Shown here: positions 2,216 through 59,865 of the stretch, one piece after another
Numbering within the stretch: the first letter of the stretch is position 1
Layout of the letters: every line of letters begins with the position of its first letter
Origin: Prostheceraeus crozeri
Taxonomy: Eukaryota; Platyhelminthes; Polycladida; Euryleptidae
DNA: 64,000 nt
NCBI GenBank assembly: GCA_907163375.1
Contig: CAJQUW010000459.1
Location: 1-64,000 of the forward strand
Direction of reading: 5' to 3'
The notes under the pieces: model-generated
The model's input: only the letters and a program-made list of their open reading frames with translations
Told to the model about the DNA's origin: nothing
Databases searched by the model: none
Translations under genes and position numbers: made by a program

Positions 2216-2461
2216 GTTTAACATACATGTATTTACATGCGCACGATTCTATAGATTTTTTAGAAAAACATTTGTGGTAACTGTTTATAGATAATAGAAT
2301 AAAGAATTTAGATAAAATTACTTTTGTTTTGGTTTTTGTAATAGAAAAGAACAAAATATGAAAACGATTTGTAATTAAAGAAAACATTGCTTGGGTTACT
2401 TTTACTTATAAGCTTAGTTTTTATGTGGCATGTCCCAATTCACCCTCAAGAGGGGTGAGTC
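2216..2461. other. non-coding spacer up to the CACTA element
   Basis: This is AT-rich sequence with no gene. The string GTCCCAATTCACCC at about 2432 recurs at about 12585 on the other side of the CACTA element, so both flanks may derive from an older repeat into which the CACTA element inserted. Confidence 0.4.
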
Positions 2462-2474
2462 CACTATGCGTCAA
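2462..2474. repeat. left terminal inverted repeat of CACTA element
   Basis: The end reads CACTATGCGTCAA and pairs with the right end with a single mismatch. CACTA is the defining terminus of EnSpm elements. Confidence 0.93.
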
Positions 2475-2489
2475 TTCTTACTTAATCTT

Positions 2490-2645
2490 TGAATATCTTT
2501 GAAAGATTCTGTCAGAATCTTTGTAAGATCGTGGAAGATACAGCAAGATCTGATCAGAATCTGACAGAAAATGTAGGATCTTTGTAAGATTCTGTCAGAT
2601 TCTTATGCTTAAATGGGATTCTGACAGAATCTTAGAATCTTTAGA
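2490..2645. repeat. left subterminal repeats of CACTA element
   Basis: About six overlapping copies of GATTCTGTCAGAATCTT, TGTAAGATC and CAGAAAATGTAGGATC occur in both orientations, many as short palindromes around TGTCAGA / TCTGACA. Plant CACTA elements carry comparable subterminal clusters bound by the element's second protein. The same words recur at the right end (12265-12400). Confidence 0.88.
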
Positions 2646-2879
2646 TTTTTCGCTCTCAATTGATTATCGCTCATCCTTGAGCATTTTAATGTTGGCCTAA
2701 TTAAGCTACATGTCCCGTAATATGAGATAACCAGTATATCCGTTGAACAACCGAGACAATTACTCCATAACGACTGATTCGAAGAAAAAATGGACAAACT
2801 TTTTTGAAGTGCTTGTTTTATTCCAGTTTAAAAAGAAGGCAAAAGAGTGTAAAGTTAAAAAGTTCAAAAACACTATCAG

Positions 2880-3097
2880 TTAGCAAAACTTTCCAATCTT
2901 CCAAGACCATTTCTCCAAATCACGAATTCTTTGGTTTATGGAACGTCTGATAACGTCCCAATCATATTCTCCGAACATGTTGTCCACTTGATCTGAAATT
3001 AAAAAGAATATTCTTTTGAGCCGCTGATCTGCAATCATTTCATGTTTTCTTAGTGCATCTTCAATGATAATGACGGCCTGCGAATTCCCTTTCAATG
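2880..3097 (-). CDS. BEN-like gene exon 6, terminal
   Basis: Acceptor AAATTTAG|CA, 72 codons after the shared codon including the TAA stop at 2880-2882. It encodes the helical C-terminus ending ...IRDLEKWSWKIGKFC. The downstream acceptor at GGGAATTCGCAG would give the wrong phase and was not used. Confidence 0.72.
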
Positions 3098-6037
3098 CTA
3101 AATTTGTTCAATCATTGAATAACGAAGTTTTTATCAGTCAGAATAATAATCAAAATCTTGAATAAATCTCAGTCATATCCAGCTTTAATGCGAGTCGGTT
3201 AATAATTAAATAGATCATTGAATACTAAGAAGACTACCAAACATTTAAAGAAAATCTGCATTTCACTGTGACTTAGCTTTTTCTGCTGCGCAACATGCAA
3301 GTGACATAAAGGGAGGGTGGGGCAAATTGAGCATGTTTTTGAACTTTTCTCAAACGGTTTTAATATTCTAAATCAAATGGGCCACAATAAAACTCGGATG
3401 AGAAGTTTAGAGCATGCTAAGTTATAATCTGAGCTGTTTCTCTGATATTTCATCTCCTCACAATTTTAATTTTAAAATGTTTACCAAGTGGCTCAATGTG
3501 CACCATTTGTGGGGCACATTGAATTACCTTTATTCATTACTCTACTGTTCAACTTTACTAGATTTTATGTGTCAGATCTATAGCTTCAGTTCATGAATAA
3601 TCGAAATCAAATAACAAATTCACAGCTTGAGATTTTTATTGGCAAAAATGATAGCATATGTTTGATATGAAAAATACATGTTAGTTTCTGACAGTAAAAT
3701 GTTCATGGACTTTCAGAATTCTAAGATTAGTAACATTATTTATGATAGAAGAGCATTCGTAAGAGCATTAATGCTATGACTCACAAAATTATATTCATCA
3801 TTGTAATCAATAAGAGCATGATTGTGGATTTTGCGCATTATATGTAGACATGACACGCGTAGGCCTAAGAAAAAAAGCTGAGAAATCACCAAACACCAAA
3901 ACTAGAAGCATTAACAATTCAATTTTTTGACCAGCAAATGAGGCTCTAATGTTCAAAGCCGAATCATTTTGATTGAGATCAATGTGCAATATTGAGATAT
4001 ACGCCGGCTATTCGCAATGGTTATGAATTGCCTACGCTTTATTTTGACGATTAGTAACATTCAGATTTAATATATTTTACAACTGTACTTACGTTTTAGC
4101 TGACTGACGATCTCTGATGGAATCAATCGAGACTCATCAGTTTTTTTCTGCGGCTCCATAATTTTCCCGCGCACGTCCTTCATCAACATATTCAAAATTA
4201 TCCAGGCCATCTGCCGTTCATCTGCAGCATACAGCTTCGCAATATCCACATCCTCATTATTATAGTTTTTGATGATCTGAAATTCAGTTATTTTGTCAAA
4301 ATACTTGTACAGTAGCATATTTTCACAAATTGATGAAAATCTAAGCACAGTGTCATGCATGCTCTAATTCATCAGAAAAAATATGCTTCCCTGTTTGATC
4401 CTCTATTTTTCTCTCCTTCGAAATCATAGAATAATGACAATGGAATATCATCAATTTAACAAACAGATATCGTTTCGACCAGTGCTGATGGGAAGTCATG
4501 ATCTATAGACGACCAGACGAGAGGACTCCCTTTTGATTAAGGTCCGATACAAATTATCCGGCGCCAAAATTCAGAAAAATTCAAAGATGAACACACCCAC
4601 GCAATTGCAGAAAAACAGCAAGAAACATAATGATGGCGATCAAAAGTATAGTCATGCTCATGCAGGGCGAAAATTGAACTTACGTATGACTTGTGCTTAA
4701 CCTTGGTCGGTTTGTTTTTTTCCTCCATCAAAGTTAGCATTTTCACTGCAATCAATGTACACATGCGTGCAAGTAACTTTTCAAAATACAAAGAACTTAG
4801 TTATTTTGGAAGTTTCCCTGTCGGTCTTAATAAGTAAGGTAGGTTTACAGTAATGCTACCATACTTTTCCGGAAGATAGCAGTAGCTAGTAAGCTTTTGG
4901 CTCTCAATGTTAGTTAATAATATCTATCATGCAATGAAAATGTCGGCTGCATAAGTTGTTCATCAAGCTGAGCGTTTCAAATATACGTTTGACAACAATT
5001 ATACCACTGTTTTGATTTTTTTGTGATTCCATCGACATTGAAGAAATAAAACCAGCATTAAAACCAAGCATTTGAGAATGGCAGAACTTACGATTCGTTT
5101 CCTTGATAATCCTCAGTTCTGATAAGATAGATTTATTGATCTCGACCAATTGCATCAATAAAGGAGATCTTTTAATTTTCGTCGCATTGGTTGTGGGTTG
5201 GGAAGGCAAAGATGCTGTGTCGCAGCAGACTTCCTGCAGCGGTGATCTTGCACAAGTCGTAGCACCGTCTGTCTCATCTGGCCATCTCAAAGAGGGAGAT
5301 ACGGGCGTCTGACGTGGTGTCCTTAGTAGAGAAGACGTGCGGACAACCTCTATGTTCCGAATCTGTTCTTGTTTCTTTGACTGCAAAATAGTTTTAATGA
5401 ATTTTACGTTTGAGAAATGCTTCTGATATAACAAAGCAAAATTGATGATGTATGAAAAAAAGTGCTGACGTTGATAAATAAGTAAACAATCACAACTAAG
5501 ACCTTGCGGTTATGCGGCTTAAAATACCATTGAGTTCTTAATAAACTATGAATGGACGCGGTTTGGTGAATGATCTTACTTACTTTACCAATAGGTGCAT
5601 TTTCCGGCTCTTTCAGCGCGTCCACCAGGCTGTCTGTCGACACTCCTTCATCTATCACGTCTTCGAGCCTATTGGAAAGTTCGACCATCTCATCTATGTG
5701 CCCTCGACCGATAACCATGGCAGATCATTTTTCTCCACCACTCTTTAGTGTGACACAATCCCTCTGAAAGCAGAAAATAGCGAAAGAATGAATTACCGGA
5801 ATCGCTCTCTCTCTCTCTCTTTCACACACACACATATGCTCACAGCCTCACACTCACCTCATTCAATGCGAGTCTGTCTTCCATTGGCATGTCAATGAAG
5901 CTACTGCCAATATAAATTGGCTCACTGTAAGTCTTTGTTTTCAAATAGTAAAAAAGGAAATAGTCTGCTTGACCAGGAAGACCAGGGAATGATTGGGGCT
6001 TTTGCTTCCTCGGACGTTTTGCTGGGGGCGTCGACAT
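2880..6037 (-). CDS. probable BEN-like DNA-binding protein of the CACTA element
   Basis: Six exons, each with GT..AG boundaries and agreeing phases: 6037-5858, 5763-5584, 5380-5092, 4745-4684, 4276-4093 and 3097-2880, giving about 370 codons. The start is an ATG at 6037 followed by a basic PAKRPRKQK stretch (a likely nuclear signal). The first 110 residues form a compact module around YFLFYYLKTKTY and VIGRGHIDEM. The middle is Ser/Thr/Pro-rich. The C-terminal 130 residues are helical, with an alternating hydrophobic segment and WDVIRRSINQRIRDLEKW near the end. That ending resembles the last helix of BEN domains, hence the name, which is an inference. An in-frame TGA at 5725-5727 interrupts exon 2 between GGEK and SAMV, and Trp (TGG) would fit. 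Its position downstream of the transposase on the same strand, inside the same termini, suggests it is the element's second protein, perhaps binding the subterminal repeats. Confidence 0.72.
4093..4276 (-). CDS. BEN-like gene exon 5
   Basis: Acceptor AATTTCAG|ATC and donor AAAC|GTAAGT, phase 1 at the end. It encodes an amphipathic helical region with ERQMAWIILNMLMKDVRGKI, similar in layout to the central helices of BEN domains. Confidence 0.72.
4684..4745 (-). CDS. BEN-like gene exon 4
   Basis: A 62-nt exon: acceptor GATTGCAG|TG, donor TAC|GTAAGT. It completes the phase-1 codon of exon 3 and ends in phase 0. It encodes a Lys-rich segment, LKMLTLMEEKNKPTKVKHK. Confidence 0.72.
5092..5380 (-). 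CDS. BEN-like gene exon 3
   Basis: Acceptor ATTTTGCAG|TCA and donor AATC|GTAAGT (phase 1). It encodes a polar Ser/Thr/Pro-rich linker and then a helical segment with VEINKSILSELRIIKETNR. Confidence 0.75.
5584..5763 (-). CDS. BEN-like gene exon 2, with in-frame TGA
   Basis: Acceptor TGCTTTCAG|AGG and donor AAA|GTAAGT, phase 0 at both ends, 60 codons. A TGA at 5725-5727 breaks an otherwise continuous domain. No acceptor past the TGA keeps the domain intact. Confidence 0.7.
5810..5835. repeat. CT/CA microsatellite
   Basis: A (CT)n run followed by (CA)n, located in the first intron of the BEN-like gene. Confidence 0.9.
5858..6037 (-). CDS. BEN-like gene exon 1
   Basis: Exactly 60 codons from ATG (6037) to the donor GAG|GTGAGT. 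TTTTTCAG precedes the ATG, so a 5'UTR intron may end there. Confidence 0.75.
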
Positions 6038-6713
6038 TCTGAAAAATTCATTTGAATTAGATAATTTAAAAATGAACCTGACATAGGGACTAAGGCACAT
6101 TCCAACAGAAAGTTGGAAAGAGTAGTATAGGTCAGTATATAGCACAAAATACAAAGATGTGCGGTAATGCAGATAGCTTGTGGAAATTACAAAATCTATT
6201 CTACCATGAGATTCGTTTGTTAATACCAATGACAAACTTCCTTTAAGTTTCAAAATCGGAACTTGACCCTTTCCATAATCTCAGAGACTTGAGGATGTTC
6301 AGTGGATCAATTTTATGAATTCTCATTTTACTTGCACATATTGTTGTCAAAACATCAGGAAAGTCAAGCAAAATAATAGTATACACGTAGGTTAGAAAAA
6401 GCGATTTATGATGATGATTGCTAAAGTTGATCAATTGTGAATAACTGCGGATATATTGTCAAAAAACTAAAGTGAAAACTTGTCCAACTTCTGAGGCGTC
6501 GAATCATCAAAACAAGGATAACTTTCATCTTCAGAAATTAGATTGCAATTAATTAATTCAAGCGTCTTCTATTGAACAACGCTTTCTATGACTTAACAAT
6601 TACTTACAGATACCCTTTAGGACCTTTTCAAAATATAAGCAGTAAACCATGCCAATAAAACATACTGAAAAAAAACACTGCTTGTACAAATGGTGGTACC
6701 CACGTGACATTTA

Positions 6714-7868
6714 TTAGGCATAATCGCTGAAATGTATTACTGGAATCAAAACTTCAACATCAGCGCTGTCTAAGTTAACTGAAATTTGTATGCATAAACA
6801 TGATATGTTTAAAACATGAACGTGCCTGGACAACGATGTTTGTGAAGAAATTATTACAATGTCATCAAACAAATCAAATAACGAAATTATTGGACTATCA
6901 AAAGTCATTTCCTGATGAAATTGTTGAACAACTTCAAAAGTTTCAATGTCGGCCACAGTCTGACCTTCACTAGGATAAAATCTTTGAATGATCCCATATT
7001 TGACAGCTCTTTCTGATTCATGAAATTTACAAATGTAACTGCAAGAATCTTGTTTCCGAGGATAATGTATGCTGTGGTACACCAACCCACGAATTTTGCA
7101 TCGATCTTTATCTATTAACAGTGCTTCTACAGCACTGTGATCGTTGAAAAATGATGGAACACTGCTTTTGAAATTAGATTTGCTGACTATAGAGAGATTA
7201 GCCTTCCGCAAAAAGGACTTCTCGACTATCTGCTTTCCGTGATACTTACTTCCATGAAACAAAGACTTAAGAGACTTGATATTACGTTCAAAAGCAAACA
7301 TTGACGCAACATGCAATGGTCCAAAACGTGATGCGTCCTCAAGTATGTGATACAATAAATGAACGTTGAGAGTCATCAACTTAGGAGGAAAAACTTTTTT
7401 AAACAGAAAACTAAATCGATCTAAGAAGGTGCCAGCAGCGATCAGAATGTCAGCAGATAATGGAGATTTGTTAAGAACTTTAACAAATAATATCAAACAG
7501 AAAATACACTCCCTTATTTCTTCATTTCGCTGAAAACTGCAAATAATTGGGAAGCATATATATACAAAAAAATTACGGAATTCATGAGCTTTCCATACAC
7601 TCATATCACGTATCCTTCGGAAGCGAGAACACCAATGAGGAACTTTCACATTTTCAATGCACTTTTCTACGTAGCTTATAGTATGCCGTCTTCCAATGTA
7701 AAATCGTTCAGTGTGATACCTAGAATTAAAAAAAGCATTCAATATCATCTTAAAAATGCCTTCATAAATGCAGTGCATTGTATCTATAATGATATTTGAC
7801 GGCAGAGAAATTATGTCTGCTACAGGAGTACTGCCTTTTATGCCGAATATCGAGTTCCCGGAACTCCG
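6714..7868 (-). CDS. CACTA transposase segment 3 (second Asp, Glu, C-terminus)
   Basis: Continues as SIFGIKGSTPVADIISLPS then IIIDTMHCIYEG. The ATG at 7778 lies inside the catalytic motif, so it is not the true start. It ends HFSDYA with TAA at 6714-6716. Confidence 0.82.
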   Translation of the reverse strand, partial: RSSGNSIFGIKGSTPVADIISLPSNIIIDTMHCIYEGIFKMILNAFFNSRYHTERFYIGRRHTISYVEKCIENVKVPHWCSRFRRIRDMSVWKAHEFRNFFVYICFPIICSFQRNEEIRECIFCLILFVKVLNKSPLSADILIAAGTFLDRFSFLFKKVFPPKLMTLNVHLLYHILEDASRFGPLHVASMFAFERNIKSLKSLFHGSKYHGKQIVEKSFLRKANLSIVSKSNFKSSVPSFFNDHSAVEALLIDKDRCKIRGLVYHSIHYPRKQDSCSYICKFHESERAVKYGIIQRFYPSEGQTVADIETFEVVQQFHQEMTFDSPIISLFDLFDDIVIISSQTSLSRHVHVLNISCLCIQISVNLDSADVEVLIPVIHFSDYA

Positions 7869-8718
7869 CTAGTGACGAATAATAAGCATATTCGTTGTCT
7901 TCCATTCCATCTCCGATTTCAAGGGGATAAGTTCTCGCAAAGCCTCCATCAACACGAGTCACTTCACCCTTCACTTTGCATTTAGGACATCCATACGCTC
8001 CATTATACTGAACAATGTTCAAAAGCCCAGCTGTTGCTGGCAAATCTGAAATGGAAGCCAGTGTATGAACAATCACTCTTATGTCCTTGCAATTGTATCT
8101 AACTGTAAATGAGGATTCATATTTTAATTGCCGAACAGCTTGGCGCAAGAAAAAATCCCATTTTGGTTTGGTAGGTCCCTCCCATAGTGACAGAAGTATC
8201 ATATTATCCATCTTTTGTCGATTAAACGGAGAAAAATTCAAAATAATAGCATGCAACGGCCACAATGTATGTTTCGAAGTACGCAGCAACGATGCACCAT
8301 CCGTGGACAACATAATGTAGATGTTCAGGGTGTCACCGCTTAGTTGAGCGCGTCTTTCTTCATCTGTCAGCACTGATGAAAGAACGTCGGTGTTCCTCTT
8401 AGCCACTAGGATGTCATTATAGGCAATTATTTTCTCGAATGAATATTGGATGATGTATTCCATTTGCTTTCTCAAATCAATATGGAACAAAGATGAACAT
8501 TTCCCTCCACAGCTGCATTTTATGTCATCAGATAAACCACATGCCGAACATATAAATTCGGACGATATGTAATTTGAAGTGGAAATTGTTTGCATCATGC
8601 GACTGAATAAACTTCGTGAGGTAGGCAAGTCCACATTTTTGACAGCCTGAAAAGGAATGAGCTTCGTTACAGATGGTAGAGTAATATCAGCTGAATTTGA
8701 AAACTTGGGTCGCGCCAA
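7868..8718 (-). CDS. CACTA transposase segment 2 (zinc cluster and first catalytic Asp)
   Basis: Begins LARPKFSNSAD after the possible acceptor GGTGGCAG. It includes the CxxC/CxCxxxC cluster, STDGASL, VHTLASISDLPATAG and YGCPKCKVKG. The original frame continues to 7762 as an unrelated peptide after the frameshift. The upstream boundary is uncertain if the 84-bp intron is not real. Confidence 0.78.
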
Positions 8719-8802
8719 CTGCCACCAGTTACATCCAATCCATTCAACCGCTAAGCCAAACAAACAGTTCATGTCAAATGAGGATTAATAACTTATCCGT
8801 AC

Positions 8803-9240
8803 CTTCATAACAGCTGCCAGTTTATCATAACTTCTTTGTGAGATATCGTTGCTGGCTAGGTTGTAGTACAGAGCCGCTGTTTCCTCGACATCTCCATTAC
8901 CGACCAAGTTAGAACATTCTAAATATTCATTATCACAATTGTCATCATATAAGAAGCTTCTATCCGAATCATCGCTATCTGAATGATCAGAGCTGGAATT
9001 GGATGAAACACACTCATTTGCATCACTTGACATGGCATTGCTACCAACAGATGTAGGATCATTTTTGGCGATTGAAGATTTCTCTACTGTGATTTCTGAT
9101 TCGTCCATATTTGATGTGTCACAATTTTGATCACCCAAGTTATGCGTGCAATCAACCATTTCTGGGACATGTGACCAGACACGACGACTTTTGAAAAAGT
9201 TGTGTTTGGAAGAAACATATCTTCTTCGTTTGTAAGACAT
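8803..9240 (-). CDS. CACTA transposase segment 1 (N-terminal)
   Basis: Starts MSYKRRRYVSSK at 9240 and is acidic and Ser-rich. A donor-like AAG|GTACGG at 8802 would end the exon; otherwise the frame runs to TAA at 8785. Confidence 0.65.
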
Positions 9241-9944
9241 CTGTAAAACACATCAGCAAAAGTGAGCTTCAATGCCACTCTAATGAGTCTACAGCTTATA
9301 CTGACATCGTTCGAATGCCTAGTTATTACTCCAATGACACGTTGCATTGTCGAACATAGAGTTAATTAATGTCGATATTGATGTAGATTCCGAAATTTAA
9401 AGAATCGTGTGCAATATTCAATAAGTTACAGTAGTTTGGATTTCAGCTCATGCTAAAGGGTGATCCGAATTTTCATGAATCAATGTGTGGTATGAAGAGA
9501 TCACGGTAATTATTAAAGAAAAAGTAGGTCTCAAATAATGGCATTGGTCTTATATTTAACTTTAAATGATTAATCAATGATGGCTGACTGAGGCACTGTC
9601 ACTGCCGCAAAGACAGTGAAAACAAATGCGAATCAACACACCCTGCAATAAATATATCCGGCGCACCTGTTTCATGAAATCTTAAAAGAAACAAGACTCA
9701 GTGCGCGCCGAGCATCAAGGCAAGAAAATGAAAAAAATACAATTTAGCGGTGCGCAGCATACTGCTTTTAGGAAGGACAATTGGCGTGTCATGCTAGGTT
9801 TATTCCGACGCAAAAAGACGTGTAAGTGGCTATTTGCTAAATAATTCATAATGACATAGGGAGGTTTTCATTTTCATAAATCAAAAGCAAAATATTCGTT
9901 GTCTCCTAACTCTATTCGTCTATCAAAAAAATATAAAGGATTGT

Positions 9945-10235
9945 TTCAAAAATAATGCGTCGGGTGAATTGTAATTGTGACGTTTGTAAAATGGTTGATA
10001 TCAATAATTGTAGCACGACTTTGTCTGCAAGACATGCAAAATGAACTATATTGGTTCGACCAATCGTCCTTTTAAGATCCGATTCAAGGAATATCGAAAC
10101 TGCATTAAGAAAAACGACAGTTATAACACGCTTTCTGAACACATTCACAAGTTCCATGCCGATATCAATCAATCTGACATCTATCTTTTCGATGTCAACA
10201 TCATTGATATTCAACGTATATATTCCCTATTGTAA
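9945..10235 (+). pseudogene. Penelope-like element fragment, GIY-YIG endonuclease
   Basis: A Cys-rich CNCDVCK...DINNC stretch at about 9965-10035 in one frame is followed, one frame away, by VCKTCKMNYIGSTNRPFKIR and then FKEYRNCIKK...LSEHIHKFHAD. The CNC..C..C linker followed by (F/Y)YIG..R.FK.RF.EH is the C-terminal GIY-YIG endonuclease of Penelope-like retroelements. No reverse transcriptase is present, so this is a short 3' remnant. It is nested in the CACTA element in opposite orientation to its genes. Confidence 0.72.
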
Positions 10236-10239
10236 GATT

Positions 10240-12260
10240 GTTTTCACGCAAAGTTGCGTCGGAATAACAATTCTTTTGTTAGATAGTTTGCTAAGAATAA
10301 TACCTGGGTTCCGTTGAAGGTTTTCGCAATTTATAATTGCTGCTGCACTTGTTCGAAGACCAGTCGTCATATAATCCTGACACAAATATGTCGAATAGAA
10401 CAATAGGCCTAATCAACTCCCACACGCTTTTATTTGGCACGATCATTCTGTCAAAACAGTTGTGACACAACTATCAGTACAGTATTCAGAGGAGCTCAGA
10501 GGAGTTGCCAGGTCAGACTCCTCTAACAAAGTGTAGACCAACTATAGAAATAAAATTTGCCTTAGGCGACCGGCGATATTCGGGATTAAACAAATTGGAG
10601 ACAAATACGTTAGCCCTAGCTTGGTCGCTGAGATTGAGATCTTAATGTGCTCTATATGTCTACATTTCAATAAAGTAAAATGAACACAGGTCCAACTGCA
10701 GCTTAACTATTTGCAATTATTTTTCGGAGTTAAAATAGGCGAAACACTTTAGATATCATATCATCGAACCAATACCGATGCAATTAGATCAACTGCAGGA
10801 CACCTTCAGCTCAATTTTTTTGCTGTGTGAGAGTTGAGCAACTTCTTATTGTCGGTCTCACGCCAATTCAAACTTTACATCCTGACGGAGAAAACGGCGT
10901 GCTGTTCAAAACATGCTCAGCTTTTAGAAAACATTGGAAATTTATTTGGAAATGTCAGTAGCCACCATCCAGTCTTGTCAACAATGCTATCCAGACTATT
11001 GATATGGCTGATAATTGCATTAGTGCCCTATACTCGTCGACATGACCTACACATTACGATGTATCAATAGGAAGGATTTTCAAAGCACATCAAAATGAGA
11101 GACGACATGCTGACTGATCAAAACACAAGTCAAGCATCTATAAAAATATAAGATATTCCAGTTGTTTATATAACATCAGAAATTAGATCAATTCAGATGA
11201 CATTGCAGCACCCTGATTTTTTTCGTAACTTATACATCGATTCAACGATGAAGTTCATCGACCCTAGAATGCATAGGCTTGTTCTAAGATACTTTGAATA
11301 GCCAATATTTCTGCATTACCTAAGCTCAATAGATCAATCAGTGCTCGAATATTTCTTTACTAGTTTGTGTGTTACATCTGTAGTCTACATCATTCCACAC
11401 ACACTCTTTTGACTTCATGACATAAACAGATACTTCAGAGCTTCCCTTTCCAAATTTTTCACTATCAGCCGAAAAATTGCATCAAAATTGGTAAGACAAA
11501 CGTCATTCAACTGGGAATTTTCCAATGTTCTCCTGTTACCTCTTAACTTACACAATATTTCAAATCTTTTATTTATTTGTTGTCATGTATCATTTGATTA
11601 AAACCAAATCATTATTTTGGATGAAATGTTTCATTATTAAGTATTCTTCTCAATCTTTTTTACAAACATGTATGACCTATTGATACACACGCAAGATTCG
11701 CCTTTATGTTCAAGAAATGGATATTTTACTAGAAAATGCTCTGGATCTGCATGCATCCACAGATCTTCCTCAATCTACTTATTCTATGATTTCACATGAA
11801 TGAAATCCTCAAAGTGACAAAGTATTTCACTTAATCAAGATCATTGTGGTTCATTTGCAAGCGGCAATTCTACGTTAACAATAGATACAATTCCTGTCTT
11901 GTACTTACTCTCTTTAGGACGTTAGTTGAGTCAGCGAAGTTGAGAACCTTCTTAGTGGCGGAACGAGCTCAAAGAAGTAGACAACTCTCTTTCGATGTAC
12001 GCAAAGTCAAGAAGGAAACGGAGAACTTTCTTTATCACGAATGAAAAGCAATGAAACGGAGGAACTTCTTTATGAATGCAAAATCAACGAAACGGAAAGT
12101 GAATTGAGGGATAAACCCAGGTTAGAAAATTTTAAACAAGACTGCTATTTGTTGTATTTTTGTCACATTTTCGGCATGAAACCTCCACGAAGGCACAATG
12201 ATTTTTTAGCAAGTGTTAATCTTTATAATTAAAAAGGAAAACATGGAAAATTATTCCAAA
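10240..12260. other. CACTA element interior without recognised gene
   Basis: About 2 kb upstream of the transposase gene and past the Penelope fragment. The short frames (10834-11070, 11844-12044, 12041-12232) show no family features. With 9241-9944 it would contain the transposase promoter. Confidence 0.45.
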
Positions 12261-12264
12261 GATG

Positions 12265-12405
12265 ATGTCAGAATCTTAGGTTTCAGAAAGATGCTTCCAG
12301 AAAATGTAAGATCTTAGCAAGATCTTAGATTTTCTTGTCAAACAATGATCTTGCATTTTCTTGTCAGAAAATGTAAGATCTTCGCAGTCTTTGAAAGAAA
12401 ATGTT
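12265..12405. repeat. right subterminal repeats of CACTA element
   Basis: Repeated AGAAAATGTAAGATCTT, TTTCTTGTCA and GATCTTAG words, the same vocabulary as at the left end (2490-2645) and again in both orientations. Confidence 0.87.
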
Positions 12406-12409
12406 CGGC

Positions 12410-12422
12410 TTGTCGCATAGTG
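12410..12422. repeat. right terminal inverted repeat of CACTA element
   Basis: TTGTCGCATAGTG, the reverse complement of the left terminus with one mismatch. Confidence 0.92.
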
Positions 12423-14471
12423 TCGGGACAATTTTTGATGGTATATTTGAGATAGTTATCATGCATTAATTTATACAAATTGTGCGTCAATCCTTAGATG
12501 AAACTCTGAAATACCTATAAGTACTATAGAATGGACGAAATTAAATTGTTTAACATATGGAAAAGTGAAATAATTGAAAAATTCGTCCCAATTCACCCCA
12601 TTTTACGGTATGTGATGTGCCTGCTAGGCATATCGTGGTTTTGCGTGTTATTATATCGCCTACTAAGTTTAGCGCGCGTACCATGACGCTTAGCAAGCAA
12701 AACATAATTTTTTTACTCGGGTCCTTTAGCAAAAGGTTCCATTACTACAAGAACTGGTCTACAGTAATCCCGCCGAAAATAATCATTCGGGTATGTTAAC
12801 ATTTAGTGTAATTTGAGAGCATTTGATAAACACATAATTTGCATTAGAGTCATAGGAAAAAAATGTTCCACGTTGAACCTTTACGCTAAGTCCAATAGGG
12901 TCGTATTTTTAAAGTTTAGATCGACCTTCCGATGAACCGTGAACGGATGTTTGGGGTTATGTGTAATTAGGCGTGGTTCACGCGTGATTGAGCGTGGCAT
13001 ATGTCACCTAGTGAAATTTGAACAACAGTTGGTATTCATGCAATAGTACATGCTAGTGAATTCAATCTTGCCTCAATATTTTCCAAATACGTTCCAATTT
13101 TGACTACTGTACATGGTGATTGTCAGAAATTATATAACTTCTACCCTTTCTGAGCAATTGTCACAATCAGAAAGTTAACACATTGATCAGAAAGGGCAGA
13201 AGTTAATTTCTGACAATCACCATATGTACAGCAGTCAAAATTTGTAGGCCTCATTTATATTACCTAATTCTATTTGCAATTGAAATTAGAATAATGTTGT
13301 CGGCCTCACCAATTACAAAACGCGAAGAAGTATTCCAAGATACTTTATTTGTGCGTCATTATATTATATCATAGTTTATCGCAATTGGTTTGAATTTTGT
13401 ACTTGGCATTAATCTTAGTAATAAATACACGACACGCTGAACATGCGGCACAGCTTTATCTATGAAGCAGTGCAGTTGGATATCAGGGATTAGACCGTTA
13501 CAATATGAAAATACGGTTCACTTCTAGCTCTAACAGAAAATTCACTGTATATTTTTGGTCTATTTCGAAACAGTGCGTGTGCAGTTTTTTCTTCATAAAA
13601 ACCAAATGCTTTCAAGATCTCGCAAGTGGGCCTTATTCACCTTCAGTAGGCGCTCTCATTAGCTTTTGCATGCCATCTTTTAATTTTTGAGAGCATAGGA
13701 CAGCATCTAATAGTTTGGCCTGACTCTACAATGAATTTCATTTTCCAAACAAACCTCTAACAGTATGACGTCTTAGATGTTGCACTAAATAAGAATGCTC
13801 CAGCTATTTGAATTTTAGAGAAATGACAATAACCTCAATTCCTAAAATAGTTGAGATTTACGAAGTCACAAAAATCTGACAGTATTTAATCACTTCATCA
13901 GCATTCATCTGCTGCAGATCGGTATGAGAAAATTAGCTACAATTCAGAAGCTTCATGGTCGAAATATACCGAATGAGTATTGCTGCTGGCGCCAGCTTCC
14001 TGTACATGTACATAATCAATGCATCCGAATTGATAGAAAAACATCTAGGCATACTCATGCTAGTATATGTACAGCTAATGAACCTCCTAGAAGTAAGAAG
14101 CTTTCTTTGTAATCAATGTAAATTCTTTTTCGATATATCAAGTTCATTTCACATTCATTTACAAAATACACGTCCTCCTGCTACATTATTACCCTCAAAA
14201 AGGCCATGAAGCATTCACTCGTTCGAATATGTCTGTATTCTCGAATGTTCATTTACAAATTCAATAGCGACATCCAAAGGGCCATGACATCGTTGAGGCG
14301 CAAGCAAGTGCTCCGAGCTGCATTTGTGAGTGAGAATGGCTGAATAAGACGAACTGAAGATAGAAGAGAAAGATATGAACAATAAAGAATTCTCGAGCCG
14401 CCTCTTCAGTCAAACGTCACCATATCGCAGAGTTGCGAAGAAGACCATCACAATCCAAGTTTCGTCATCTC
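12423..14471. other. non-coding sequence, includes U2SURP 3' flank
   Basis: No gene is recognised except the hairpin at 13095-13244. The side next to 14471 must contain the U2SURP 3'UTR. I see no unambiguous minus-strand AATAAA close to the stop. Confidence 0.45.
13095..13244. repeat. short imperfect hairpin repeat
   Basis: Left arm about 13095-13155 (TTTTGACTACTGTACATGG, then GATTGTCAGAAATTA and CCCTTTCTGA) pairs with right arm about 13183-13244, with few mismatches and a loop of about 27 bases. It is consistent with a small foldback MITE. If transcribed it would form a long hairpin. Confidence 0.8.

Positions 14472-59865
<45,394 letters not shown>

Follow-up and report, generated by a model that had tools for sequence, protein, structure and literature searches.

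The window, which is the whole 64,000-nucleotide stretch of the Prostheceraeus crozeri genome analysed here (contig CAJQUW010000459.1), contains a transposon that spans positions 2462-12422 and has inverted 9-bp ends, CACTATGCG, at 2462-2470 and 12414-12422. Within it lie two genes on the reverse strand: a transposase gene with exons T1 and T2, and a second gene, here called gene 2, with exons E1 to E6. The features are given below in window coordinates; family B is a divergent element family of the same genome.

2460..2461, no strand: target-site duplication TC (left), from the flank read and the empty site
2462..2470, + strand: left terminal inverted repeat CACTATGCG, 3' end relative to the genes
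2495..2640, no strand: left subterminal repeats, several palindromic, of the AAGATTCTGTCAGAATCTT type
2817..2822, - strand: AATAAA after gene 2, candidate polyadenylation signal
2880, - strand: last base of the gene 2 stop codon
2881..2992, - strand: gene 2 exon E6, with the terminal YDW..RRS.NQRIRD block, conserved in family B
4093..4276, - strand: gene 2 exon E5
4684..4745, - strand: gene 2 exon E4, short and basic, placed by splice sites and phase only
5092..5380, - strand: gene 2 exon E3
5584..5763, - strand: gene 2 exon E2
5725..5727, - strand: in-frame TGA at codon 73 of gene 2, a lesion of the young subfamily
5858..6037, - strand: gene 2 exon E1, with the start codon and a splice acceptor just upstream; 57% identity to family B
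6715-6710, - strand: AATAAA, overlapped by the stop of T2
6716..8646, - strand: transposase exon T2 with the tnp2 core and a frame break at 7868/7867
7287..7289, - strand: third catalytic residue E (FERN), in a frame different from that of the two D residues
7867..7868, - strand: frameshift junction; older copies have 2 bp more here than the window copy
8044..8046, - strand: second catalytic residue D (SDLPA)
8299..8301, - strand: first catalytic residue D (STDGA)
8803..9240, - strand: transposase exon T1, with the start codon directly after a splice acceptor
12259..12400, no strand: right subterminal repeats
12414..12422, - strand: right terminal inverted repeat, 5' end relative to the genes
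12423..12424, no strand: target-site duplication TC (right), from the flank read and the empty site

The matching ends and TC flanks described in an earlier sequence-only reading are present at these positions. The ends are short, inverted and begin with CACTA (5'-CAC..GTG-3'), as in CACTA/EnSpm elements, and the target duplication, 2-3 bp in that superfamily, is 2 bp here, not 3. Searching the organism's own assembly with the two window flanks joined by a single TC gave 39 listed matches; 18 other loci are uninterrupted over all 240 bases with 98-100% identity, and four of them are exact. Because uninterrupted copies of the flanks exist elsewhere, the element was inserted into another repeat, with duplication of TC; the flanks at 2342-2461 and 12425-12544 of the window are sequence of this other repeat. 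Near the left flank there is a 223-codon open frame (1544-2212) in which Pfam finds nothing at E up to 0.01. The subterminal repeats that the sequence-only reading had seen at both ends are also there: the two 240-bp ends have 28 8-mers in common, against 3.5 on average and at most 14 for 1,884 pairs from the interior. In 2,000 draws, first-order Markov versions of the ends share 5.9 on average, with 28 attained at least once, and thus the enrichment is in part one of composition.

Exon T2 matches the Pfam models DUF1258 (7.4e-13), Transposase_21 (6.9e-10) and DUF4218 (6.3e-8) in two overlapping frames, and the Transposase_21 (tnp2) match, at 38.9 bits, exceeds the curated cut-off of 28.6. These matches bear out the identification of a tnp2-type transposase. 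The claim that one transposase retains all three catalytic acidic residues does not hold for the window copy. Upstream of the junction 7868/7867 lie the two D codons and a CPKC motif, and after it come HLLYH and the E codon in another frame; the 2 bp that the window copy lacks there put the E codon out of frame with the D codons. The junction could be read in 22 copies, 11 short and 11 long. Open transposase frames of 690 codons exist in the copies C11784, C6314 and C4856, and C4856 has a single frame of 790 codons over both exons. The hallmarks of a CACTA/EnSpm transposase are found together in C4856 and in family B, and are split over two frames in the window copy. The first splice acceptor tried for T2 yielded stops and was replaced by the one that gives 6716..8646.

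The proposed second gene is confirmed: it lies on the strand of the transposase and has six exons with GT-AG borders and consistent phase. It has 335 codons in the window family and ends at codon 329 in three older copies. An earlier last exon (2880-3107) was replaced by the shorter E6 when family B showed where the conserved part starts. Gene 2 has nothing above cut-off in Pfam; its best sub-threshold models, YebO (0.0026), Lgt1_N (0.0065) and PDDEXK_5 (0.04), are unrelated to one another. Its sequence matches in the PDB are weak, with designed filaments and DNA gyrase B in the lead (best 0.014, a designed filament). No TnpA or plant En/Spm model was listed for gene 2 at E up to 10, in a search in which the HMMER filters drop most matches above 0.1. 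The description of an apparently unrelated second protein thus holds only in the sense that Pfam shows no similarity to plant En/Spm models. No relatives of gene 2 were confirmed in viral contigs or in bacterial and archaeal genomes.

In the order of conserved residues in E5+E6, judged by eye only, the C-terminal part of gene 2 resembles a BEN domain, and it might be a diverged DNA-binding domain of that type. The spliced gene-2 proteins have no PF10523 match, however, none of the 60 PF10523 matches in the genome overlaps a listed gene-2 match, and there is no BEN structure among the PDB sequence matches; we consider a BEN origin quite improbable. The 60 BEN-domain matches in the genome, 43 of them over the Pfam cut-off, lie mostly in short open frames and perhaps represent a repeated or mobile BEN gene; on C3954 one of them is found about 14 kb downstream of a gene-2 locus. 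Inside the element, antisense to its genes, there is also a short open frame at 10014-10235 (+), CKMNYIGSTNRPFKIRFKEY, which we take to resemble a GIY-YIG segment; Pfam gave no match to such a domain.

The assembly searched for further copies contains 2.05 Gb in 14,165 contigs. Queries with the left end (239 bases) and the right end (223 bases) gave at least 42 and at least 43 matches, respectively, fragments and the window included (40 candidates scored for each). Twenty-five further copies were retrieved, some of them interrupted by contig ends or gaps. Both exact ends are present in 20 copies (window included); 19 of these are flanked by a 2-bp target duplication, C9760 being the sole exception, and none by a 3-bp one. 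Nine of the 25 retrieved copies align to the window copy at full length in one piece, with 98.75-99.55% identity. For C14002 the alignment falls into two pieces near 98%, and for C4856, C233, C8551 and C8944 into several pieces with about 95-97% identity; others are internally deleted. C7414 and C268 lack 6471-8753, the transposase core, and keep the gene-2 region, and four copies of about 6.25 kb have two identical deletions and different flanks, with matching duplications in three of the four. The copy check proposed with the sequence-only reading has a positive outcome: other copies carry the same ends, both genes and 2-bp duplications, and since window-family copies sit at different sites, gene 2 does not belong to a single locus of the host. 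A further tnp2 match (G000:C12872:476670-478349) lies about 110 bases past the right end of a window-family copy, and possibly reflects one CACTA element inserted in or beside another.

It turns out that the element cannot be called complete, as it had been, because its transposase is frameshifted before the third catalytic residue and its gene 2 is stopped by TGA at codon 73 (5727-5725), a sense codon in older copies, in the C4415 relative and in family B. Among 14 aligned full-length copies, the window included, both lesions occur in all nine young copies, which differ from each other by 0.31% on average (mean pairwise difference); one of these, C12216, has an extra, earlier frameshift in gene 2. 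The five older full-length copies lack both lesions and have other breaks. In C14002, C233 and C8551 gene 2 is open to codon 329 and the transposase is broken, in C4856 the transposase is open and gene 2 broken, and in C12103 neither gene is open. Both genes are intact in none of the 14.

Since the young copies share their lesions and have different target duplications, they probably moved after the lesions arose, which would imply proteins supplied in trans. Mobilization in trans is the most likely history of the young subfamily, judged from the shared lesions and the independent insertion sites, and the proteins that moved these doubly broken copies would have come from older-type copies. 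These near-identical copies, broken in both genes in all nine cases, would then be a natural example of full-length elements that spread with borrowed proteins. Alternatively, the young copies might be autonomous, with ribosomal frameshifting or splicing restoring the transposase and gene 2 starting downstream of its stop. They are the copies most alike and hence most recently spread, and gene 2 does have an ATG downstream of the TGA. Yet older copies read one continuous transposase frame (690 codons, or 790 in C4856), a downstream start would lose E1, the best conserved of the exons compared, and copies with large internal deletions are also found at new sites with their own duplications, so that autonomy appears highly improbable. 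The window element is probably a young, full-length, non-autonomous copy, moved in trans, of an animal CACTA (EnSpm) family of cut-and-paste DNA transposons that encodes a tnp2-type DDE transposase and a conserved partner of about 330 residues.

The two genes also occur together outside the window family. In family B (C482, C6823) both genes share a strand and gene 2 lies downstream of tnp2, as in the window family; over 616 aligned residues the T2 sequences of the two families show 34% identity. Between the two families, gene 2 has 57% identity in E1, 38% in E2 and 43% in E5+E6, where E6 of family B was read in C482 only; the whole-gene alignment, for which the end of E3 in family B was guessed, gives 38%. 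The pN of 0.36 against a pS of 0.72 between the families indicates that the gene-2 protein was under purifying selection. The recent polymorphism of gene 2 has eight nonsynonymous changes, one synonymous change and one stop at shared biallelic sites, and in these sparse sites no depletion of amino-acid changes is seen. Shared variants are fewer in gene-2 exons than in non-coding sequence (10.9 vs 20.5 per kb, P 0.036), and taken together the recent variants show no clear mark of selection on gene 2.

With the family B gene-2 protein as query, at least 156 matches were found in the organism's own genome (150 of 297 candidates scored). Among the matches listed, and with the window family left out, we compared the positions of 55 gene-2 loci with those of 106 tnp2 loci. 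A listed tnp2 match is found within 15 kb of 24 of the 55, on the same strand in every case and never on the opposite one; by chance about 0.085 of the 55 would be expected to have one on either strand. The 24 are not independent, and represent roughly six or seven families in our grouping by spacing and identity. Gene 2 is downstream of tnp2 in seven of these loci and upstream in 17, and the upstream homologues are 24-30% identical over the matched stretch, with open frames of 182-390 codons according to the match listing. Homologues in a single open frame adjoin tnp2 on C5204 and C3125, for example, and a longer homologue is on C6212. The other 31 loci have no tnp2 within 15 kb among the matches listed. 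These comparisons make gene 2 an old and conserved companion of the tnp2 transposases in the P. crozeri genome, and the view of the element as a two-gene unit is strengthened, since a family as divergent as B carries both genes too.

Gene 2 might instead be a passenger, a host or other mobile gene that was captured once and has no role in movement. In favor of this, gene 2 has no domain match above cut-off, its recent polymorphism looks nearly neutral, and the young subfamily amplified with its own gene 2 broken. But in several divergent families the homologues adjoin tnp2 and share its strand, purifying selection has acted on gene 2 between families, and since neither gene is intact in the young copies, their expansion does not count against a gene 2 that acts in trans. 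We regard capture as a passenger as unlikely, and a conserved partner of the transposase remains the preferred reading.

In maize En/Spm, which encodes TnpD and TnpA, subterminal repeats are also present, and the target duplication of plant CACTA elements is 3 bp. The P. crozeri element resembles En/Spm in its CACTA ends, its subterminal repeats and its combination of a tnp2 transposase with a second protein, and differs in its 2-bp duplication, in a gene 2 that matches no plant En/Spm Pfam model, and in the reversed gene order of some gene-2 relatives. By analogy, the transposase would cut and join, and the gene-2 protein would bind the subterminal repeats and help to assemble or regulate the transposition complex. 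The palindromic form of the repeats suggests a dimeric binding protein, for which gene 2 is the natural candidate; as no gene-2 domain exceeds the Pfam cut-off, homology lends no support to DNA binding. We put such a TnpA-like role forward tentatively, at slightly under an even chance. The division of labor between TnpA and TnpD that the sequence-only reading transferred to this animal element is likewise inferred by analogy; in maize both proteins are essential for transposition, according to the accessible text of PMC1636069.

Gene 2 might also counter silencing or regulate transcription of the element, with no part in cutting or joining. The ends are repeat-rich, and plant TNPA also reactivates a methylated promoter, as stated in the accessible text of the same paper (PMC1636069), whereas gene 2 has no enzymatic or chromatin domain above cut-off; this role seems to us somewhat unlikely. 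The TnpA-like role remains our preferred proposal. Both start codons lie directly behind splice acceptors, so that the two genes may share one spliced transcription unit, and these start positions, together with the transposase stop that overlaps AATAAA, would fit one unit spliced in two ways. Spm and SmTRC1 each have one transcription unit that is spliced alternatively, as the accessible text of PMC1636069 describes them, and the P. crozeri element may follow the same scheme.

SmTRC1 of Schistosoma, one of the animal TRC elements (DeMarco 2006, PMC1636069), is, in the accessible text of that report, an animal CACTA-type element with a Transposase_21 domain, a 2-bp target duplication in seven of 14 copies, and spliced second proteins, PrA and PrB, that have no detectable similarity to plant TNPA. 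The P. crozeri element is like it in type, in the Transposase_21 domain, in the 2-bp duplication and in having a spliced second protein of this kind. Its ends begin with CACTA, whereas those of SmTRC1 begin with CCC in the same text; and the SmTRC1 authors detected no similarity of PrA/PrB to other animal or fungal elements, whereas gene 2 recurs across several families of one genome. Another paper, PMC13155389, merely cites SmTRC1 in its accessible part. Fungal EnSpm elements that carry TET/JBP genes are similar in having an extra gene and the hallmark C(2)C and H(3-4)H motifs, but they have 3-bp duplications, and their extra gene encodes a recognisable enzyme (PMC12730594, accessible text). 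In the accessible text of the literature searched, which leaves most subscription journals and Repbase outside, no conserved second protein of animal CACTA elements is described. An animal element with unrelated second proteins has thus been known since 2006 (SmTRC1). It is conceivable, if not quite an even bet, that animal CACTA elements carry an ancient second transposition protein of an origin unrelated to TnpA, kept on the same strand while the gene order flipped, as a convergent two-protein system. A second protein conserved across several animal families is a defined candidate to test.

Elsewhere in the window, exons of a U2SURP-like host gene lie at 16868-26170 (-). For two of them the PDB has a matching U2SURP chain (1.7e-9 and 2e-22); one of these has the Pfam model cwf21 just above cut-off, and the other the SURP model below it. 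The open frame 15368-15847, which has no Pfam match, resembles the RS-rich end of this gene. In a stretch of 13 residues another open frame, 52613-53086 (+), resembles the end of a mariner-type transposase, although Pfam lists nothing for it at E up to 0.01. A perfect tandem array at 55541-55980 consists of 2.8 copies of a 159-bp unit with a 100% match.
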